Part shown: piece after piece, positions 16,150 through 23,425 of the stretch
Layout: every line of letters begins with the position of its first letter
Position numbering within the stretch: position 1 is the first letter of the stretch
Virus record (IMG/VR): IMGVR_UViG_3300036859_000185
Location: 1-23,425 of that record
Strand: one strand, 5' to 3'
From: a virus
Length of the DNA stretch: 23,425 nt
The notes under the pieces: model-generated
Told to the model about the DNA's origin: nothing
Seen by the model: the letters and a program-made list of their open reading frames with translations, nothing else
The model's database searches: none
Translations under genes and position numbers: made by a program

Positions 16150-16355
16150 GATCTCTCCATCTTTTCGATCTCTTCTTGCAGGAACCCGGCCAAAGTCTTA
16201 ATCGAGTTTAGCTTACACCCCAGCAGTTTACAGTTCCGTCCATGGATGCCAGCCGGATCGGCGATGGTATGACATTCCAGCTCCGGGCCTGCGTGGTCGT
16301 CCAGGGATTTGACGGTCTCTATCAGGAGCCTCAAGGTGTTCAGCGGAGTGTCCAT
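16134..16355 (-). CDS. Small Cys/His-containing protein between terminase and portal
   Basis: 73 residues. The ATG at 16355 overlaps the terminase stop (TGATG), which sets the start. A helical N-terminus (MDTPLNTLRLLIETVKSLDD) is followed by a cluster ECHTIADPAGIHGRNCKLLG with another Cys two residues on, which might bind a metal, and a helix LNSIKTLAGFLQEEIEKMER ending SCHMS. Family unknown. It overlaps the next gene by 16 bases. Confidence 0.75.
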   Translation of the reverse strand: MDTPLNTLRLLIETVKSLDDHAGPELECHTIADPAGIHGRNCKLLGCKLNSIKTLAGFLQEEIEKMERSCHMS

Positions 16356-17764
16356 CAGTTCAACCTCATCAGCCAGTCCCGGCCGTAGGTGGCCTCGTGC
16401 TCCTTCGACCACTCCCACACATCCTCGTGCTTCATGATGTCGCCCATGGTGCCTTTGCGGTACTGCTGGTCTTCGTCATCATCGGCATAGCCGTACCGAT
16501 CCAAGTACATAGCAGCATAGCGCGCACAATCGCAGGCGTGCTGGGCGACGTTGGGATCAGGCTCCTCTTTGCCGTACTTGTCGGCCTCGACTTTCTTCCA
16601 GACATATCCGGGGATTTCTTCCAGCAGGCCAACCGGTCGCTGGAGTTCTCTTAGTCTTTCATCAAGAGGTCGAGTACATCCACGAAGCACAGCCAGCGCT
16701 GGTCGTCCGTCTGGTTGTAGGTCCAGTCGGTTGCGGACCGTGTCAAGTCCAACCAGCACGTCGTTGTTGGCCTCGCGTGTCGGCAGCCCGGCCTGGCGGA
16801 ACTGGTGGATGAACCCCGGCTCGGCCGGGTCACAGACAAAGACCCGGAGCTGGTGGCGTCGGAATAGCTCGCGGGCTTTTTGCACCCACCAGTCGATGGT
16901 CTTTTCGACAAAGTACACCTCCTCCAGCAGGTACATGCGGTTGTCGTTGTCTACACCCCAGACTTGGATGCAGCCCGGATTGCGAAAGCCCCAGTCCACA
17001 CTGGCGATCTTCCACATGATCACCGATCGGCCGCCCGTCAGCAGCGGTACTTTATCGATCAGATGCGGCGGTCCGTGATTGAAGTTCTCCCAAATCTGCC
17101 CCTCGGCCGCCACCCAGCGTCCCTCGTACAACCGAGCCCTGCGTGTCCCGGTCAGGCGGCTGAGGCGGGTGAGGTATTCGGGGGTCAGGCTGGGGTTGTC
17201 CTTGTGCAGGACCACGTATTCCTTGGTCCGGCCCTCGTTCATACGCCTGCGCATCCAGTGCGTAGGGGCGTCGGGGTTCATGTCCCCAATCAGCCGCTGG
17301 AACGGCATCTTGTTGTTGCGAAGCGCTCGATGGAGCGATTCCCACTCGCCCTCGGTAAGTTCGTTGCACTCGTTGACGTAGGCGATGTCGTACTCGGTGC
17401 TGAACAACCGGGTCGGCTGGTCCATCCCGCCCAGCACCAGCTCGCTGCCGTTCTTGAACTTGTAGCTGGGGCGGCCCTCTTTCTGCCGGGCCTCCAAGAG
17501 AGGTACTTCCAAGTAGGTCGCGTCCACGTCGGCCGCCAGCACCTTATCTTCCCAGGTCACCAGCCAGGACTGGCTCATGGAAACACGGGTCTTGCGCATA
17601 GCCAAGGCGCGCGAGCCTGGGAACTCCAAGAGCGCCCAGAGCAAGAACTCGCCGATGCCCCGGCTTTTGCCAGTCCCGGCCGGACCAACCAGGCAGCACT
17701 CAGCCGGGTGCTCGTACCAGAGCATCTCCACGTCGCCGTAGGGCTTGTAGGTTTTGCCGGTCAC
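16355..17764 (-). CDS. terL: Terminase large subunit
   Basis: 469 residues. It is the ATP-driven DNA packaging motor with C-terminal nuclease that docks on the portal and cuts concatemers. The Walker A motif GPAGTGKS is at residues 27-34. The Walker B-like strand DIAYVNE at 126-132 carries the catalytic Glu, and GDMNPDAPTHW at about 160-170 is the coupling region. The RNase H-like nuclease starts at IASVDWGFRNPG (Asp 257), with a second acid in FVCDPAEPGF (Asp 312) and a late HACDCARYAAMYLDRYG. The start is GTG at 17764, overlapping the previous stop (GTGA). Length and motif order are normal and all key residues are present. Confidence 0.96.
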   Translation of the reverse strand: MTGKTYKPYGDVEMLWYEHPAECCLVGPAGTGKSRGIGEFLLWALLEFPGSRALAMRKTRVSMSQSWLVTWEDKVLAADVDATYLEVPLLEARQKEGRPSYKFKNGSELVLGGMDQPTRLFSTEYDIAYVNECNELTEGEWESLHRALRNNKMPFQRLIGDMNPDAPTHWMRRRMNEGRTKEYVVLHKDNPSLTPEYLTRLSRLTGTRRARLYEGRWVAAEGQIWENFNHGPPHLIDKVPLLTGGRSVIMWKIASVDWGFRNPGCIQVWGVDNDNRMYLLEEVYFVEKTIDWWVQKARELFRRHQLRVFVCDPAEPGFIHQFRQAGLPTREANNDVLVGLDTVRNRLDLQPDGRPALAVLRGCTRPLDERLRELQRPVGLLEEIPGYVWKKVEADKYGKEEPDPNVAQHACDCARYAAMYLDRYGYADDDEDQQYRKGTMGDIMKHEDVWEWSKEHEATYGRDWLMRLN

Positions 17765-18021: not shown

Positions 18022-18747
18022 TTATCTGCTCAACTGCCATAACCGATCATCCCATGCCGCCGGCACGAGCACGGCGTCAGAGTTCAGCATAGCGGCTGAG
18101 CCGTCAAACCTGCCGGTGCCGGCCGAGCGAGCAAAGTGTCTTTTCCAGCCCAGCCTCGCGCCGGTCAAGTGCTCGGTTGCCCACACGTCGTAGAACTGCC
18201 CGATGCCGGCGTCCCCCCAGCTTCGCCAGTTGTCGATCTGTTCGAGCAAAGTCCCGTCCAGATCATCGCCAAAGTCGCTGTCGTAGATGAGGGTGGAGGG
18301 GAACTGGATCGATGCCAGGCTCACCGGTCCGCGCCGGAACCTGGAGGCACCAGAACCACGGGCGTCTACGCCAGCACGGGAAAATGGGAAGCCGTTGACG
18401 ACGTAGTTGACCAAGTGGGCGTCTCTCGCGCGGGCTGGGTCGTGGTAGCCAATAGCGAACTCGAAGGCATCATCTCTGGTTTCATCCCCCAGATACGGCC
18501 GCAGCACTACGCACCACACCGGCCAGTTGTCGCCCTCGCCGACATGCCCTTCGCGCGGCACCAGGTCGTGGTAATCCCTGGCATAGGCATGGCTGGCGGT
18601 GATGATCTGCCGCTGGTTAGACAAGCAGACCGCCGCGCGGGCATTCTCCCTGGCGTGTTTGAGGGCTGGCAGCAGCAGCGACAGCAACACCGCGATCAGG
18701 AGGATCACCACCAAAAGTTCGATCATGGTGAAGGATCTTTCACACAC
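18022..18747 (-). CDS. Prepilin-like protein with N-terminal cleavage/methylation motif
   Basis: 241 residues. The GTG at 18747 is chosen because it keeps a short leader (MCERS) before the mature motif FTMIELLVV, with the conserved Phe at mature position 1 and Glu at 5. The ATG at 18726 would remove the leader. A hydrophobic helix follows (VILLIAVLLSLLLPALK), then HARENARAAVCLSNQRQIIT, typical of type II secretion or DUF1559 prepilin-like proteins. His204 with Asp215-Gly216 resembles the H-X9-DG motif of PVC proteins, with one extra residue. The usual Gly at -1 is Ser. It overlaps the terminase small subunit by 25 bases and lies between the two terminase genes, so it is an accessory cargo gene acquired by the phage. 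Confidence 0.88.
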   Translation of the reverse strand: MCERSFTMIELLVVILLIAVLLSLLLPALKHARENARAAVCLSNQRQIITASHAYARDYHDLVPREGHVGEGDNWPVWCVVLRPYLGDETRDDAFEFAIGYHDPARARDAHLVNYVVNGFPFSRAGVDARGSGASRFRRGPVSLASIQFPSTLIYDSDFGDDLDGTLLEQIDNWRSWGDAGIGQFYDVWATEHLTGARLGWKRHFARSAGTGRFDGSAAMLNSDAVLVPAAWDDRLWQLSR

Positions 18748-19475: not shown

Positions 19476-20095
19476 CATCCGAACACGCTATTCAGTATTG
19501 CTGCTTCGGGGAAGTAACGGCACCACGCCGGAGAGGGTCTAGAGAACCCGAGCCCCCAGGAGCGCCGAGACCCCAGTCCCTTGTAGCCAGGGCGGGTGTT
19601 GGAAGTATCCGGCTGTGCAAGACCAGCGGTAAAACCAGCGGCAGCTACCAGCAATACTGCAAAAACAGCGTGTTTGGAACCAAAAAAGCCACCCCCATCT
19701 GGGACAGGTTTCCAAAGCACCACAATGGAGATCCTAAAACCAAAGAGGGACTCCTTCTCTGTCGTCCCAAAGAAAGGCTTCCCCATAACCCCTTGTTTCG
19801 GGGTAGGCATATGGAGATCCTAGACCTTGTGGATGTTGCGCATGTTGGACACCGGACCCAACCGCGTCGTGGATCGTTCCATCGGTTTAGGGGGGTCCGG
19901 CTGCCCCATCATCTGTATTGGTGCCGCGCCATTGCCCTACCGTTGCCATTAGACCCCTCCAGACGCGTCCGAGGTCCGGGGGTGTCCCGATGCCCACCCG
20001 ACCCGCTCGGACGGTTTGTCGGGGTATCGTTAGTGCCGATTGCTGGGCATTAGAGGCGTGGAGAGAGGGAGAGGGGAGAGAGGGGAACGCACACC

Positions 20096-20125
20096 ACACG
20101 CGCCATACTTACTGACACGCGCCAT
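20096..20125. repeat. Two direct copies of ACACGCGCCAT, 19 bases apart
   Basis: The 11-bp word occurs at 20096-20106 and 20115-20125, a start-to-start distance of 19 bases, close to two helical turns. It lies in the non-coding control stretch after a purine-only tract. Such spacing suits a pair of operator half-sites or iterons on one DNA face. With only two copies, an origin is not supported. Confidence 0.5.
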
Positions 20126-20373
20126 CCAATGCGGTTTGGGGCAATGGGCAAGCATATCCCCTAAGTGTGCAAGTTAGTAAAGTGCGTGCTAACCTTGCGC
20201 GAAACACGATAAGATCCCTTGCATCCGGTCGATGGGTCTGTTAGACTGCTTGTCGGGCGGGAGGCGCGGACCTGCTATGCGCGGTTCGCGGGTCGGCTCT
20301 TTGACATCACTGGGGTTTGGTTGGTCCGTTCACCCCCAAGTCTTGGGTGCGCCTGTCTGCCCGCGTTGCGGAC

Positions 20374-20421
20374 GGGGGCGCGCCCGGTCTAGACGCCCCC
20401 ATTGATCCGGGGGCAGGAAGG
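20374..20421 (+). promoter_or_regulatory. Leader with mutually exclusive hairpins before a ribosome binding site
   Basis: GGGGGCG (20374-20380) can pair with CGCCCCC (20394-20400). The same CGCCCCC arm can instead pair with GGGGGC (20409-20414), which abuts the ribosome binding site GGAAGG (20416-20421). Only one hairpin can form at a time. Upstream, GTCTGC/GCGGAC and CACCC/GGGTG pairs add further stems. The layout is that of an attenuator or translational switch for the gene at 20431. It is seen by base pairing only; no known riboswitch consensus was recognised. Confidence 0.4.
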
Positions 20422-20430
20422 CGGCCTCAT

Positions 20431-20892
20431 ATGGCACCCATTGATACCGTGAACGGACCCGCGCAGAAGATCGACCCAACCGAGCAGCGCAAGTCTCCCC
20501 CCAAGGGTGAGCAGGTCAAGCGCACCAGCGCCGAGCTGCTGGCGCTGTGGGACGGGCCGGACGGGGCCAAGGCGACTTGGAACAAGATCACCAAGCGGCC
20601 GGCCGCCACGTGCAACGAGACCATGCAGCGAGACGGGTCAGACGCCGACTTGTTCTCGGCGCTCGATCATGACGCTCGCGAAGCCGTCTCATGGCGCACC
20701 ACTGTCGTAGAGCGGCGGCGCAGACTGACCGGCTTGCCGATCGACGGGGTGTCGTCGTACGCCGATCGTCTGGCCGATTTCAAGGGCATCAACCTCGTGA
20801 TTGACGGGGAAATGTTCGATGGCGTCGCGCTCGCCAGCGCGCTGCGCAACCGGCGCAAGGCCATCCTGCACGGGACAGCTACGACCGGTTGA
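20431..20892 (+). CDS. Unknown 153-residue basic protein
   Basis: The ATG at 20431 is preceded by GGAAGG nine bases upstream; a longer in-frame start at 20317 would translate the structured leader and is rejected. The N-terminal 35 residues are Pro/Lys-rich and probably disordered (DPTEQRKSPPKGEQVKRTSA). A middle part LLALWDGPDGAKATWNKITK and a Cys-containing ATCNETMQRDGSD follow. The rest is helical (FSALDHDAREAVSWRTTVVE then RRRRLTGLPIDGVSSYADRL) and ends RNRRKAILHG. No family is recognised. It is isolated between two non-coding stretches with its own terminator, as expected for a separately expressed phage protein, possibly nucleic-acid binding given its basic nature. Confidence 0.8.
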   Translation: MAPIDTVNGPAQKIDPTEQRKSPPKGEQVKRTSAELLALWDGPDGAKATWNKITKRPAATCNETMQRDGSDADLFSALDHDAREAVSWRTTVVERRRRLTGLPIDGVSSYADRLADFKGINLVIDGEMFDGVALASALRNRRKAILHGTATTG

Positions 20893-20910
20893 TCCTGGTT
20901 GATCCTGGTT
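20887..20910 (+). repeat. Tandem repeat of GGTTGATCCT at the gene end
   Basis: Two full copies and four bases of a third copy of the 10-mer GGTTGATCCT run from 20887 to 20910. The TGA stop of the 153-residue gene lies inside the first copy. It is probably a slippage duplication; the repeat lies just upstream of the terminator. Confidence 0.8.
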
Positions 20911-20925
20911 ACCAAACCCCTAACA

Positions 20926-20960
20926 GACCCGCTCGTGCCAAAGCGCGGGCGGGTCATTTT
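20926..20960 (+). terminator. Rho-independent terminator after the 153-residue gene
   Basis: GACCCGC (20926-20932) pairs with GCGGGTC (20949-20955). The stem extends inward by five further pairs, two of them G-T, to a 6-base loop, followed by ATTTT. It lies 34 bases after the stop codon on the coding strand. Confidence 0.75.
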
Positions 20961-21118
20961 ACGCGACCGATCGAACGGGCGCACCATTGGTCCAAGTGAT
21001 GGACCGGGCGCTACTAGGTCGGCTGGCACCCCCGTACTTCACGGGGAGTACCGTACCGCTCGCTTGACAACCGAACCCCGATCAGACTTCCCAGCGCGGA
21101 CTAGACTCGCGCGTGCGG

Positions 21119-21148
21119 CACACACGCCCGTACATTGGGTAGTATACT
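21119..21148 (+). promoter_or_regulatory. Weak candidate promoter for the structured RNA
   Basis: TATACT at 21143-21148 is a good -10 match. The only -35 candidate is a poor CACACA at 21119-21124 with an 18-base spacer. If used, it would start an RNA near 21155 that ends at the terminator at 21940, about 785 bases. A TTGACA at 21064-21069 has no matching -10. Confidence 0.2.
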
Positions 21149-21154
21149 AGCAAA

Positions 21155-21940
21155 CACTGGACTAACACGCCAGAGTGCAGCGCGGTATCCTTGCCCGTAC
21201 GGATACAGGGTGCTATGGCGCGCGGGCGCTAGTTGACTGCCACGACGGAGTAAGACGAGCGCCATCTTTACCCCCACTATCGGGGCCATGGATGCGAGCT
21301 GGGACATACCGGCCAATCCCCACCGAAGGTGATCCGCATAAGCGAGCAAGCGCACAGCGCTCGACAGGCGTAGTGCGCGCCCCCGACGGGGCAGCGCGAA
21401 AGCGCCAGACCTCTTGCCGATAGCGGCCTTAACTTAGAGTAGGTGGGACGGTGCAGCAAGAGCAACGGTACGGCGACGGTGCAGATGATCGGGGCGGCGC
21501 GCTTTGCGTTTTAGAGCGCAGGTAAACCGTTCTTTCCCGCTATACGCGAGCGGACACACACCTTGCAGGCCAGCGATACGCCGACGGGCGCGATAAATGG
21601 CCAGCGTACACAACCACTAGCAATGGACGACGACACGGCTTGACGCAGGCATCCTGGTTGTCAGGGATGCACGCCAATCGTGGTGGGAGCCCTCAAAGCG
21701 TTCCCTAGATACCACCGTGTTGTCTCACACACGCACAGCCACGAGTGTACCTACATTCGTGCCTAGATATCCCTCGCGCTGGCTGAAACACGCCGGCGCG
21801 GGGCTTTATCGCCGTGCGCTTTAACGACAGGGCGCACAGCCGGCTGATGTGAGCCGAAAGGCCACGAATAAAGCCTAGGAGACGGTCTGTCTCCTGGTTG
21901 GGCTGCCGCCCCGGGCTTGTAGCTCTGGGCGGCGGTTTTT
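21155..21940 (+). ncRNA. Candidate large structured non-coding RNA
   Basis: No plausible gene lies between 20893 and 22087, yet the plus strand is dense with hairpins. They include GTATCC/GGATAC (21185-21206), ATGGCGC/GCGCCAT (21215-21265), GCCCC/GGGGC (21379-21392), GCGC-GAAA-GCGC with a GNRA loop (21394-21405), CCGCT/AGCGG (about 21539-21555), and GCATCCTG with a bulged CAGGGATGC (21649-21670). Further 3' are GGTG+GGGA with TCCC+CACC (21682-21715), CACGAGTG/CATTCGTG (21740-21761), a 12-bp stem (21772-21803), GTGCGC/GCGCAC (21814-21837), GCC-GAAA-GGC (21853-21862) and AGGAGAC/GTCTCCT (21877-21895). A strong terminator closes it. Size and ornateness recall the phage RNAs GOLLD and ROOL, but I cannot match either. 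The 5' end is uncertain; structure may begin at 21030 (CCCCGT/ACGGGG). Confidence 0.5.
21903..21940 (+). terminator. Strong Rho-independent terminator of the RNA region
   Basis: CTGCCGCCC (21903-21911) pairs with GGGCGGCGG (21927-21935). After one mismatch, the inner GGGCT/AGCTC (21913-21925) continues the stem to a 3-base loop, giving about 14 pairs. Five T residues follow (21936-21940). It reads on the plus strand and has no gene within 1 kb upstream, which is the best single argument that the upstream stretch is transcribed as an RNA. Confidence 0.88.
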
Positions 21941-22087
21941 ATGCTAAACAAACCACCATCACGACGACGGCCCGGACAGAATAAGTGGTCGTACTACTGC
22001 GACTTGCCGACGACCACGTGCTGCGCCCGCTTCTGCACAAACCCCGAGCATCCCAGCAGTTGGTATCCTGATGAAAAGGAGCAACCC

Positions 22088-22357
22088 ATGACACTAAAGG
22101 AGATCTGTGACGAACGCGCCAAAGAGCGAGCGCACGAGGAAGCCATGCACAGGCTAGAGCTGGAGCACAGCCGCAGATGGCAAGAAATAATCCGGCTCGC
22201 CATTGACACAATCCACAAAAACCTCCCTCAGGTTGTGCTGACACTCACTATCGCCGCCACTATCTGCTGGATAACCCTCCAGATCCGTATCGCCGACACG
22301 TCGAAGCCCAAACCAACACCAACCGCCGAGCAGATGTTCGGCATGGGGGGGAGGTAG
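22088..22357 (+). CDS. Small single-span membrane protein
   Basis: 89 residues from the ATG at 22088, with AAGGAG six bases upstream. The frame is open back to an ATG at 21941, but that start directly abuts the terminator T tract and has no binding site. A charged helix (MTLKEICDERAKERAHEEAM, then RLELEHSRRWQEIIRLAIDT) precedes one transmembrane segment VVLTLTIAATICWITLQIRI, and a Pro/Thr-rich tail ends EQMFGMGGR. Helix-then-span designs occur in phage holin-like or spanin-like proteins and in superinfection-exclusion proteins. The lysis role is only a possibility, since no endolysin is nearby. Confidence 0.8.
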   Translation: MTLKEICDERAKERAHEEAMHRLELEHSRRWQEIIRLAIDTIHKNLPQVVLTLTIAATICWITLQIRIADTSKPKPTPTAEQMFGMGGR

Positions 22358-22372
22358 CACAAGGAGACAGTT

Positions 22373-22588
22373 ATGGCTGTTATGGTATCTGTACGCGCCT
22401 TGCCAAATCGGTTTAACGCCTCGCTGCGGCCCCCGAGCCCCAAGGTGGGCCGTATTGGGGTTTGGGTGTGCTTGGAGTCTGGGACGCCGGTAATGGGCAC
22501 TATCGTGGCATTGGAGCGCGGAGCCGACATGCTCAAGGCCACGATCTTGACTCCCAACGGCAAGACCCACCAGATCAGGGTGGTGTGA
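22373..22588 (+). CDS. Unknown 71-residue small beta-barrel-like protein
   Basis: The ATG at 22373 is preceded by AAGGAG at good spacing, 15 bases after the membrane protein's stop. MAVMVSVRALPNRFNASLRP then GRIGVWVCLESGTPVMGTIV and LKATILTPNGKTHQIRVV alternate short strands and turns like a small SH3- or Sm-type barrel. It has no recognised family. It belongs to the plus-strand cluster of small genes. Confidence 0.75.
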   Translation: MAVMVSVRALPNRFNASLRPPSPKVGRIGVWVCLESGTPVMGTIVALERGADMLKATILTPNGKTHQIRVV

Positions 22589-22589
22589 C

Positions 22590-22874
22590 ATGGCAAAAGA
22601 AGCCGAGTTCAACCACAAGGCAGCCAAGTTCAGCCGCGAGCTGGCTTTGCTGACAGATCACAGCGTGGTCATCCCCTTGGACTTGGCCACCTTGATGGTA
22701 ACGGCCACAATCATGGCGATCGAACAGATCGACAGGCTCAAGCCTGGTGACAGCACTCCTGCCGCTTTATTGGCCATGCACGCGCTGCTTGGCCGCGAGG
22801 ACCAGTTCAAGGCTTTGGCCGAGATGGTGGTCGAGCAAGGGCAAGAGTGCCTTAAAAAAGCAGGTAGGTTGTGA
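22590..22874 (+). CDS. Unknown 94-residue helical protein
   Basis: The ATG at 22590 follows the preceding stop by one base; AGGGTGG upstream may serve as ribosome binding site. The protein is helical: MAKEAEFNHKAAKFSRELAL, IPLDLATLMVTATIMAIEQI, STPAALLAMHALLGREDQFK, and MVVEQGQECLKKAGRL. The hydrophobic middle is more likely a buried helix than a membrane span because charged residues flank it closely. No family is recognised. Confidence 0.78.
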   Translation: MAKEAEFNHKAAKFSRELALLTDHSVVIPLDLATLMVTATIMAIEQIDRLKPGDSTPAALLAMHALLGREDQFKALAEMVVEQGQECLKKAGRL

Positions 22875-22909
22875 TTGGTTTGGCATATTTCGCACGAAAG
22901 GAGAATCTT

Positions 22910-23206
22910 GTGAGCACCCAGAAAGAAGTTTGGACCGCACAGAAGCAGACCGTTGACACCGCTACGGTCGGCATACCAGCCAGGGTCGGCCAGAACGTCT
23001 TGGTCATTACCGGCACGTACTTCTACTTCGGCCGGCTGGTGACGGCCAACTGCGACTTCATCGAGATCGCCGACCCCTACATCGTCTACGAGACCGGCGA
23101 GTGGTCGGCCACGAAGTTCAAGGACGCCCAGCGCGTCTCCAAGAACACCCTCTTGATCTCGGTAGGGCACATCGAGTCGATCCATGTGACCGAGAAAGTG
23201 GTGTAG
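22910..23206 (+). CDS. DUF6948-like small phage protein
   Basis: 98 residues from a GTG at 22910 (MSTQKEVWTAQKQTVDTATV). This start is preferred over the upstream GTG at 22871 because AAAGGAG lies six bases before it. The segment NVLVITGTYFYFGRLVTANC, then DFIEIADPYIVYETGEWSAT and LLISVGHIESIHV, follows the pattern of a small phage beta-barrel family I recall as DUF6948 (R-T-Y-S-A-G-V-H-x-G-x-L ... A-R-R-V-W-Y-W ...). Here the aromatic and turn positions are similar but diverged. Function is unknown. It is immediately followed by the hexamer repeat gene, and the same frame remains open past its TAG. Confidence 0.7.
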   Translation: MSTQKEVWTAQKQTVDTATVGIPARVGQNVLVITGTYFYFGRLVTANCDFIEIADPYIVYETGEWSATKFKDAQRVSKNTLLISVGHIESIHVTEKVV

Positions 23207-23207
23207 C

Positions 23208-23423
23208 ATGGTGAAGCCAAGAAGATCACCAAAGTCGTGGTCGGGATCGTGGTCGTGGTCGGGGTCGTGGTCGGGGTCGGGGTCGTGGTCGGGGTCGTGG
23301 TCGTGGTCGGGGTCGTGGTCGTGGTCGCGGTCGCGGTCGTGGTCGCGGTCGCGGTCGTGGTCGTGGTCGGGGTCGGGGTCGTGGTCGGGGTCGTGGTCGG
23401 GGTCGGGGTCGGGGTCGGCATGA
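23208..23423 (+). CDS. Ser-Trp/Gly/Arg dipeptide-repeat protein
   Basis: 71 residues. The ATG at 23208 lies one base after the stop of the DUF6948-like gene, and the TGA at 23421-23423 overlaps an ATG (ATGA), as in coupled genes. After MVKPRRSPK comes thirty Ser-X dipeptides (X = Trp 14, Gly 12, Arg 4) and a final Ser-Ala. It has no known domain. All six frames are open here, so this frame is only the one with a start and stop in conventional places. The alternatives are an Arg-Gly frame and a Val/Gly frame on this strand and Thr/Pro, Pro-Arg and Asp-X frames on the other. Confidence 0.5.
   Translation: MVKPRRSPKSWSGSWSWSGSWSGSGSWSGSWSWSGSWSWSRSRSWSRSRSWSWSGSGSWSGSWSGSGSGSA
23235..23418 (+). 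repeat. Thirty-copy TCGNGG hexanucleotide array
   Basis: Thirty uninterrupted hexamers TCGNGG run from 23235 to 23414, then TCGG. N is T in 14 copies, G in 12 and C in 4, never A. The only other change is one GGG to GGA in the second unit. Variation sits at one position, which is a four-fold degenerate third base for Arg (CGN) in one plus frame and for Pro (CCN) in one minus frame. No stop occurs in any frame. Confidence 0.97.
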
Positions 23424-23425
23424 GC

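Follow-up and report, generated by a model that had tools for sequence, protein, structure and literature searches.

A conserved phage gene pair encoding a predicted Sm-like protein and a Ser-[Trp/Gly/Arg] dipeptide-repeat protein

The hexamer array that closes the window (the whole linear IMG/VR record of 23,425 bases analysed here) is almost certainly translated and, together with the gene directly upstream, makes up a protein-coding two-gene phage module. The array forms the body of a short gene for a Ser-X dipeptide polymer, in which X is Trp, Gly or Arg. The upstream gene, hereafter the companion (window 22910-23206 and its relatives), encodes a small protein with a predicted Sm/LSm fold.

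Results

The hexamer array is the body of a short Ser-X gene

The array occupies positions 23235-23414 on the plus strand and lies at a contig end, since the window is a complete linear fragment. Tandem Repeats Finder assigned it a period of 6, 30.7 copies and a score of 249, in agreement with an earlier note on this DNA that had called the locus repetitive and non-random. That note described thirty TCGNGG units differing only at N; there are indeed 30 units, 29 of which are exact, and the second hexamer (23241-23246) is TCGGGA. The base N is T in 14 units, G in 12 and C in 4. It is never A, as had been pointed out, which is unremarkable: 28 of the 44 TCG-type arrays with at least 15 units also have no A.

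The interior of the array contains no stop codon in any frame. The six frames described as open are thus open within the array, but they are not equal. The Ser-X gene (23208-23423, plus strand; 71 codons and TGA) starts with ATG at 23208, contains a basic nine-codon leader read in the sequence as MVKPRRSPK (23208-23234) and a body of 30 Ser-X dipeptides, and stops with TGA at 23421-23423. Its product, MVKPRRSPK-SWSGSWSW...SGSA, has a net charge of +8. This is the frame with a start in which, as correctly noted before, the variable base swaps Trp, Gly and Arg. The Gly-Arg frame, which had been thought to read Gly-Arg in every copy, does not do so throughout, as it reads Asp at the TCGGGA unit; nor is it open from a start codon, since it has a TGA at 23210-23212 and lacks a start.

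The companion gene (22910-23206, plus strand; 98 aa) begins with GTG at 22910, 6 nt behind a Shine-Dalgarno-like AAAGGAG (22897-22903), and its stop codon (TAG) is separated from the ATG of the Ser-X gene by 1 nt. At the other end of the Ser-X gene, the plus-strand sequence ATGAGC (23420-23425) contains an ATGA that overlaps the stop codon and is truncated by the contig end. The ATG at 23420 may be the start of a next gene, perhaps a second Ser-X gene, because at related loci Ser-X genes that share a leader follow one another in tandem.

Elsewhere in the window, the minus strand encodes a large terminase (16355-17764), which has no close cultured relative and matches Streptomyces phage Dagobah best (36% identity). 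Adjoining the terminase region is a gene for a pseudopilin-like DUF1559 protein (18025-18747, minus strand; PF07596, E 8.9e-8). DUF1559 is associated with planctomycete hosts. A contig of 39.5 kb from a Phycisphaeraceae MAG carries a related companion.

The companion and the Ser-X gene are a conserved pair

A single-sequence query of viral contigs with the window companion returned no relatives. Among phage records, tblastn gave a distant match in MW202825.1, in which Ser-X ORFs likewise follow the companion, the first opening at the companion stop. A profile built from these two companions matched ORFs at many TCGNGG loci and was then iterated. Six perfect TCGNGG units used as a DNA query recovered at least 120 viral loci. 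Among the matches listed, 72 of 124 arrays have a companion no more than 500 nt upstream in the same orientation, and none has one on the opposite strand; for another 30 listed arrays the locus ends less than 500 nt away and shows no companion. A Ser-X start is found at or near the companion stop at all 71 listed companion-bearing TCG-array loci (64 ATG, 7 GTG or TTG), and an ATG is present in the Gly-Arg frame at 17 of these loci and in the Val frame at 11. The earlier proposal of a low-complexity GR-type protein therefore holds as to low complexity, the encoded polymer being Ser-X instead of Gly-Arg.

In an unbiased test, viral contigs were searched with the companion alone, using two subfamilies. 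This search gave 159 loci, 141 of which contain a Ser-X ORF (at least 6 Ser-x-Ser steps) directly behind the companion. The remaining 18 are mostly short arrays or contig-edge ends, and companions without an array come down to about five distinct loci. Ser-X runs of at least 8 units number 159 within 300 nt downstream of the companion on the plus strand, against 7 on the entire minus strand. Start and stop overlap as ATGA at 80 of 136 loci. More than one Ser-X gene is present at 16 loci, with 2-8 copies in tandem that often share the leader and differ in X order. The leader tracks the companion subfamily, being basic in 52 of 62 cases in one and xAxxxRxG[YF]-like in 42 of 62 in the other; relatives within the subfamily of the window companion have basic leaders such as MRxxKQKYRS. 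The window pair belongs to this module: a relative by companion HMM lies directly upstream in the same orientation, and the Ser-[WGR] ORF begins where that gene stops.

The array had been regarded as unexplained by the neighbouring genes, a view that no longer holds now that it proves to be consistently paired with the gene immediately upstream. Related phages lacking the array, named in the earlier note as a refutation, were looked for, and the relatives do have it. Assembly error, the other refutation proposed there, is rejected, because other homologous contigs span arrays completely. Arrays lie in the interior of long contigs, and annotated genomes of several sources contain them too, among these the Pectobacterium, Vibrio and Iodobacter phages with the Gly-X version described below. 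Many viral contigs, the window included, end inside or just behind such arrays, which suggests that the arrays interrupt assembly and that the gene is under-reported.

Within the phage collection searched, the Ser-X version occurs in metagenomic phages only. MW202573.1 encodes MNAAIIRAGLDASWSWS... A survey of 84,980 species genomes yielded four contigs of 8-40 kb. No conserved neighbour besides the pair itself offered a clue to function, the next most common neighbour family being present at only 7 of 117 loci. As neighbouring genes are not shared, the pair looks like a small cassette moving between unrelated phages.

The companion is predicted to adopt an Sm/LSm fold

Searches of Pfam, PHROGs and NCBIfam returned no family match for the companion family; none of 49 companions reached the DUF6948 model of Pfam at E 0.01 and no other Pfam match was obtained. 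A PDB sequence search found no relative, and the full companion alignment is too divergent for pattern search. Rfam had no match within window positions 20000-23425.

The AlphaFold2 model of the window companion has a mean pLDDT of 88.8, with residues 21-90 at about 95-98. Sm/LSm/SmAP chains took rank 1 in Foldseek (E 9.5e-4), structural comparison with Sm/LSm by VIA gave a Z of 10.7 and an rmsd of 2.5 across 67 residues, and the best 50 PDB structural matches were all Sm/LSm. The second companion subfamily, modelled separately (pLDDT 95.1), matched Sm/LSm with a Z of 9.8 and an rmsd of 1.9 across 68 residues. From these models the companion is confidently predicted to have the Sm/LSm fold, a small bent five-stranded barrel. 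In an hhalign comparison with four approximate Sm/Hfq sequences, the Sm1 region fell in register at a probability of 3.9% (P 0.011). The RNA-binding residues of the Sm family are not evident in the companion alignments. The top viral structure matches of the companion include DUF6948 proteins.

DUF6948 and Gly-X arrays form a sister module

Gly-[Tyr/Asp/Ser] arrays were also sought, and at least 120 viral loci have them. At 90 of the 120 listed loci the array is close to a member of one shared gene family, which nearly always sits just upstream; one scanned member of this family is DUF6948 (PF22253, E 5.2e-33). The companion profile aligned with DUF6948 at an hhalign probability of 72% (E 3.5e-5), and the companion HMM found no matches upstream of Gly-X arrays. 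Among 4170 Gly-X units, X is Tyr in 1850, Asp in 1014 and Ser in 988; glycine is encoded by GGC, GGT, GGG or GGA, and the two variable positions of the hexamer are precisely those separating the Tyr, Asp and Ser codons. Both modules consist of a small companion followed by a dipeptide gene in which a small residue alternates with aromatic, charged or small residues. They differ in charge, the Gly-[Y/D/S] polymer being acidic and the Ser-X polymer basic. Among cultured phages, the Gly-X version was identified in three: Pectobacterium phage Abuela, Vibrio phage IKEMa6-1 and Iodobacter phage PhiPLPE. At a locus of Chlorobiaceae phage CV-1-33 (1843-2088), a protein annotated as MAMAMALAMA... is encoded behind a DUF6948-like gene; it looks like a misannotated alternative frame of a Gly-X array.

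The pair may form a ring-and-polymer assembly

A ring working with a polymer appears the likeliest function, because the gene of the Sm-like partner is directly upstream on the same strand. In this reading, the companion would form a ring. The Ser-X polymer would be a disordered, multivalent sticker-spacer chain in which aromatic, charged and small residues alternate with a small residue. During infection this chain would be held by the ring, or act alongside it, to give a multivalent scaffold or condensate, and nucleic acid may be part of the assembly. Gene linkage suggests that the two products may interact physically. Since the sister polymer is acidic and Ser-X is basic, charge-based nucleic-acid binding cannot be the common denominator of the two modules; the property they would share is that of a multivalent, disordered sticker-spacer chain. 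As a statement of biochemical function, a scaffold or condensate built from ring and polymer is a plausible suggestion that we hold with somewhat less than even confidence.

The pair could also be an accessory host-takeover or counter-defence cassette, in which the Trp/Arg-rich Ser-X protein, carried or regulated by its Sm-like partner, would act by binding a target in the host or a membrane. The unconserved neighbours are as expected of a mobile cassette in unrelated phages. Favouring it further, as many as 8 Ser-X genes occur in tandem, several of which share a leader but differ in the order of X, and the product is basic and Trp-rich (Ser-X proteins have a median length of 65 aa and a median net charge of +9). 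However, matches to known families are lacking altogether, and a membrane-active cationic peptide cannot be the general answer given the acidic, Tyr-rich polymer of the sister class. We consider a takeover or counter-defence role unlikely, though worth keeping in mind beside the ring-and-polymer assembly.

Selection acts on the composition of the Ser-X protein

Serine is encoded by TCG in 59 of 119 arrays, by TCT in 30, by TCA in 16, by AGC in 13 and by AGT in 1, and the codon is nearly uniform inside each array and different from array to array. The X codons are mostly NGG, with GG at X positions 2-3 in 116 of the 119 arrays, a companion-based sample that was scored for Ser-X and covers GG spacing with non-serine spacers only in part. 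Trp, Gly and Arg occur at about 0.31:0.38:0.31; this ratio is homogeneous over the serine-codon classes (chi2 8.6, p 0.20) and the choice of Arg codon differs by class (CGG vs AGG, chi2 234, p 2e-50). Both p values are rough indications, because units of one array are not independent. TCG arrays write 80% of their Arg codons as CGG, whereas TCT and AGC arrays use AGG for 80%. All three residues are present in 117 of the 119 arrays. The composition thus stays constant while the DNA is rewritten, which indicates selection on the protein and argues strongly against DNA-only and alternative-frame readings. A single base varies per hexamer because Trp, Gly and Arg are all NGG, and no special mutator is needed. 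The combination of a uniform serine codon and a mixed X suggests concerted evolution together with selection for the mixture.

The Gly-Arg, Pro-Arg and Val frames were considered as coding frames and rejected. They are abolished where serine is TCT, TCA or AGC, and Ser-[W/G/R] is kept; as read from the sequences, the alternative frames of the array are not conserved.

The earlier note had offered a diversifying element. Such an element would direct mutation at a single base in each hexamer, as by a diversity-generating retroelement or at a contingency locus. Departures from the array consensus at the six hexamer positions are 2.1, 2.8, 3.7, 53.9, 8.6 and 5.2%, so the first base of X is off consensus in 54% of units, compared with 2-9% elsewhere, and close relatives differ by whole-hexamer indels and X changes. 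A single variable base on a constant background does resemble such a retroelement. The variation is, however, not confined to A positions: A-directed mutagenesis would strike the A of the TCA and AGC serine codons, which stays fixed or nearly so. The amino-acid ratio is also constant over the codon classes, and the sister class varies at two positions, exactly those that Tyr, Asp and Ser require. Together, the constant ratio, the fixed serine A and the sister pattern indicate that the residue alphabet accounts for the variation, and targeted mutation is very improbable.

Neutral slippage, which would make the array an expanding in-frame microsatellite without function, deserves hardly any credence. 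The number of units does vary (8-47 per array, median 25) and the hexamer is homogeneous within an array, but the arrays have a fixed position behind one gene family and keep one alphabet with four serine codons, and Trp, Gly and Arg are nearly always all present. The order of X is near random with a slight avoidance of identical neighbours (0.262 vs 0.297 expected), whereas fresh slippage would leave the reverse. Least probable is that the reading frame is accidental and the array a structural element of DNA or RNA, in which a GG every 6 nt could form a two-tier G-quadruplex or a recombination site: NGG spacing is retained across the serine-codon classes, but the remaining bases vary as serine codons, AGC included, in the one frame that opens at the companion stop, and the sister class uses glycine codons with Tyr, Asp and Ser codons instead.

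Discussion

The individual parts of the module are of known kinds, namely a described fold, low-complexity repeats and, in the sister version, a named domain of unknown function (DUF6948). A search of the open-licence literature found no description of the companion with Ser-X or of DUF6948 with Gly-X, and within that literature we found no described system that joins an Sm-like fold and a dipeptide repeat. The companion resembles Sm, LSm and SmAP proteins in its predicted small five-stranded barrel and differs from them in that no membership is detectable by sequence. In sticker-spacer low-complexity domains, such as those of FUS-type, RGG and SR proteins, small residues alternate with aromatic residues and Arg. 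Ser-X shares this alternation of a small residue with aromatic residues and Arg. Unlike those domains, it keeps a strict dipeptide register and is encoded by phages as a stand-alone short gene coupled to an Sm-like gene. More broadly, and only tentatively, phages might encode undescribed two-part assemblies in which an Sm-like ring is combined with a dedicated dipeptide polymer, in at least two chemistries, to make a condensate or scaffold; we regard this wider claim as rather doubtful at present.

It is easy to write off low-complexity repeat ORFs of phages as sequencing noise or slippage, whereas Ser-X is a conserved gene with a fixed partner. Assemblies and gene callers mishandle the array loci, as seen in contig breaks and in one apparently wrong annotated frame. 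With its DNA rewritten and its composition constant, the Ser-X gene is a natural experiment that cleanly tests whether selection acts on what a disordered protein is composed of. The presence of the sister version in cultured phages makes the proposed function testable. If partner and polymer do act together, the pair would be a minimal system of ring and polymer in phages, with a parallel in cellular RNPs, which have Sm cores and low-complexity tails.
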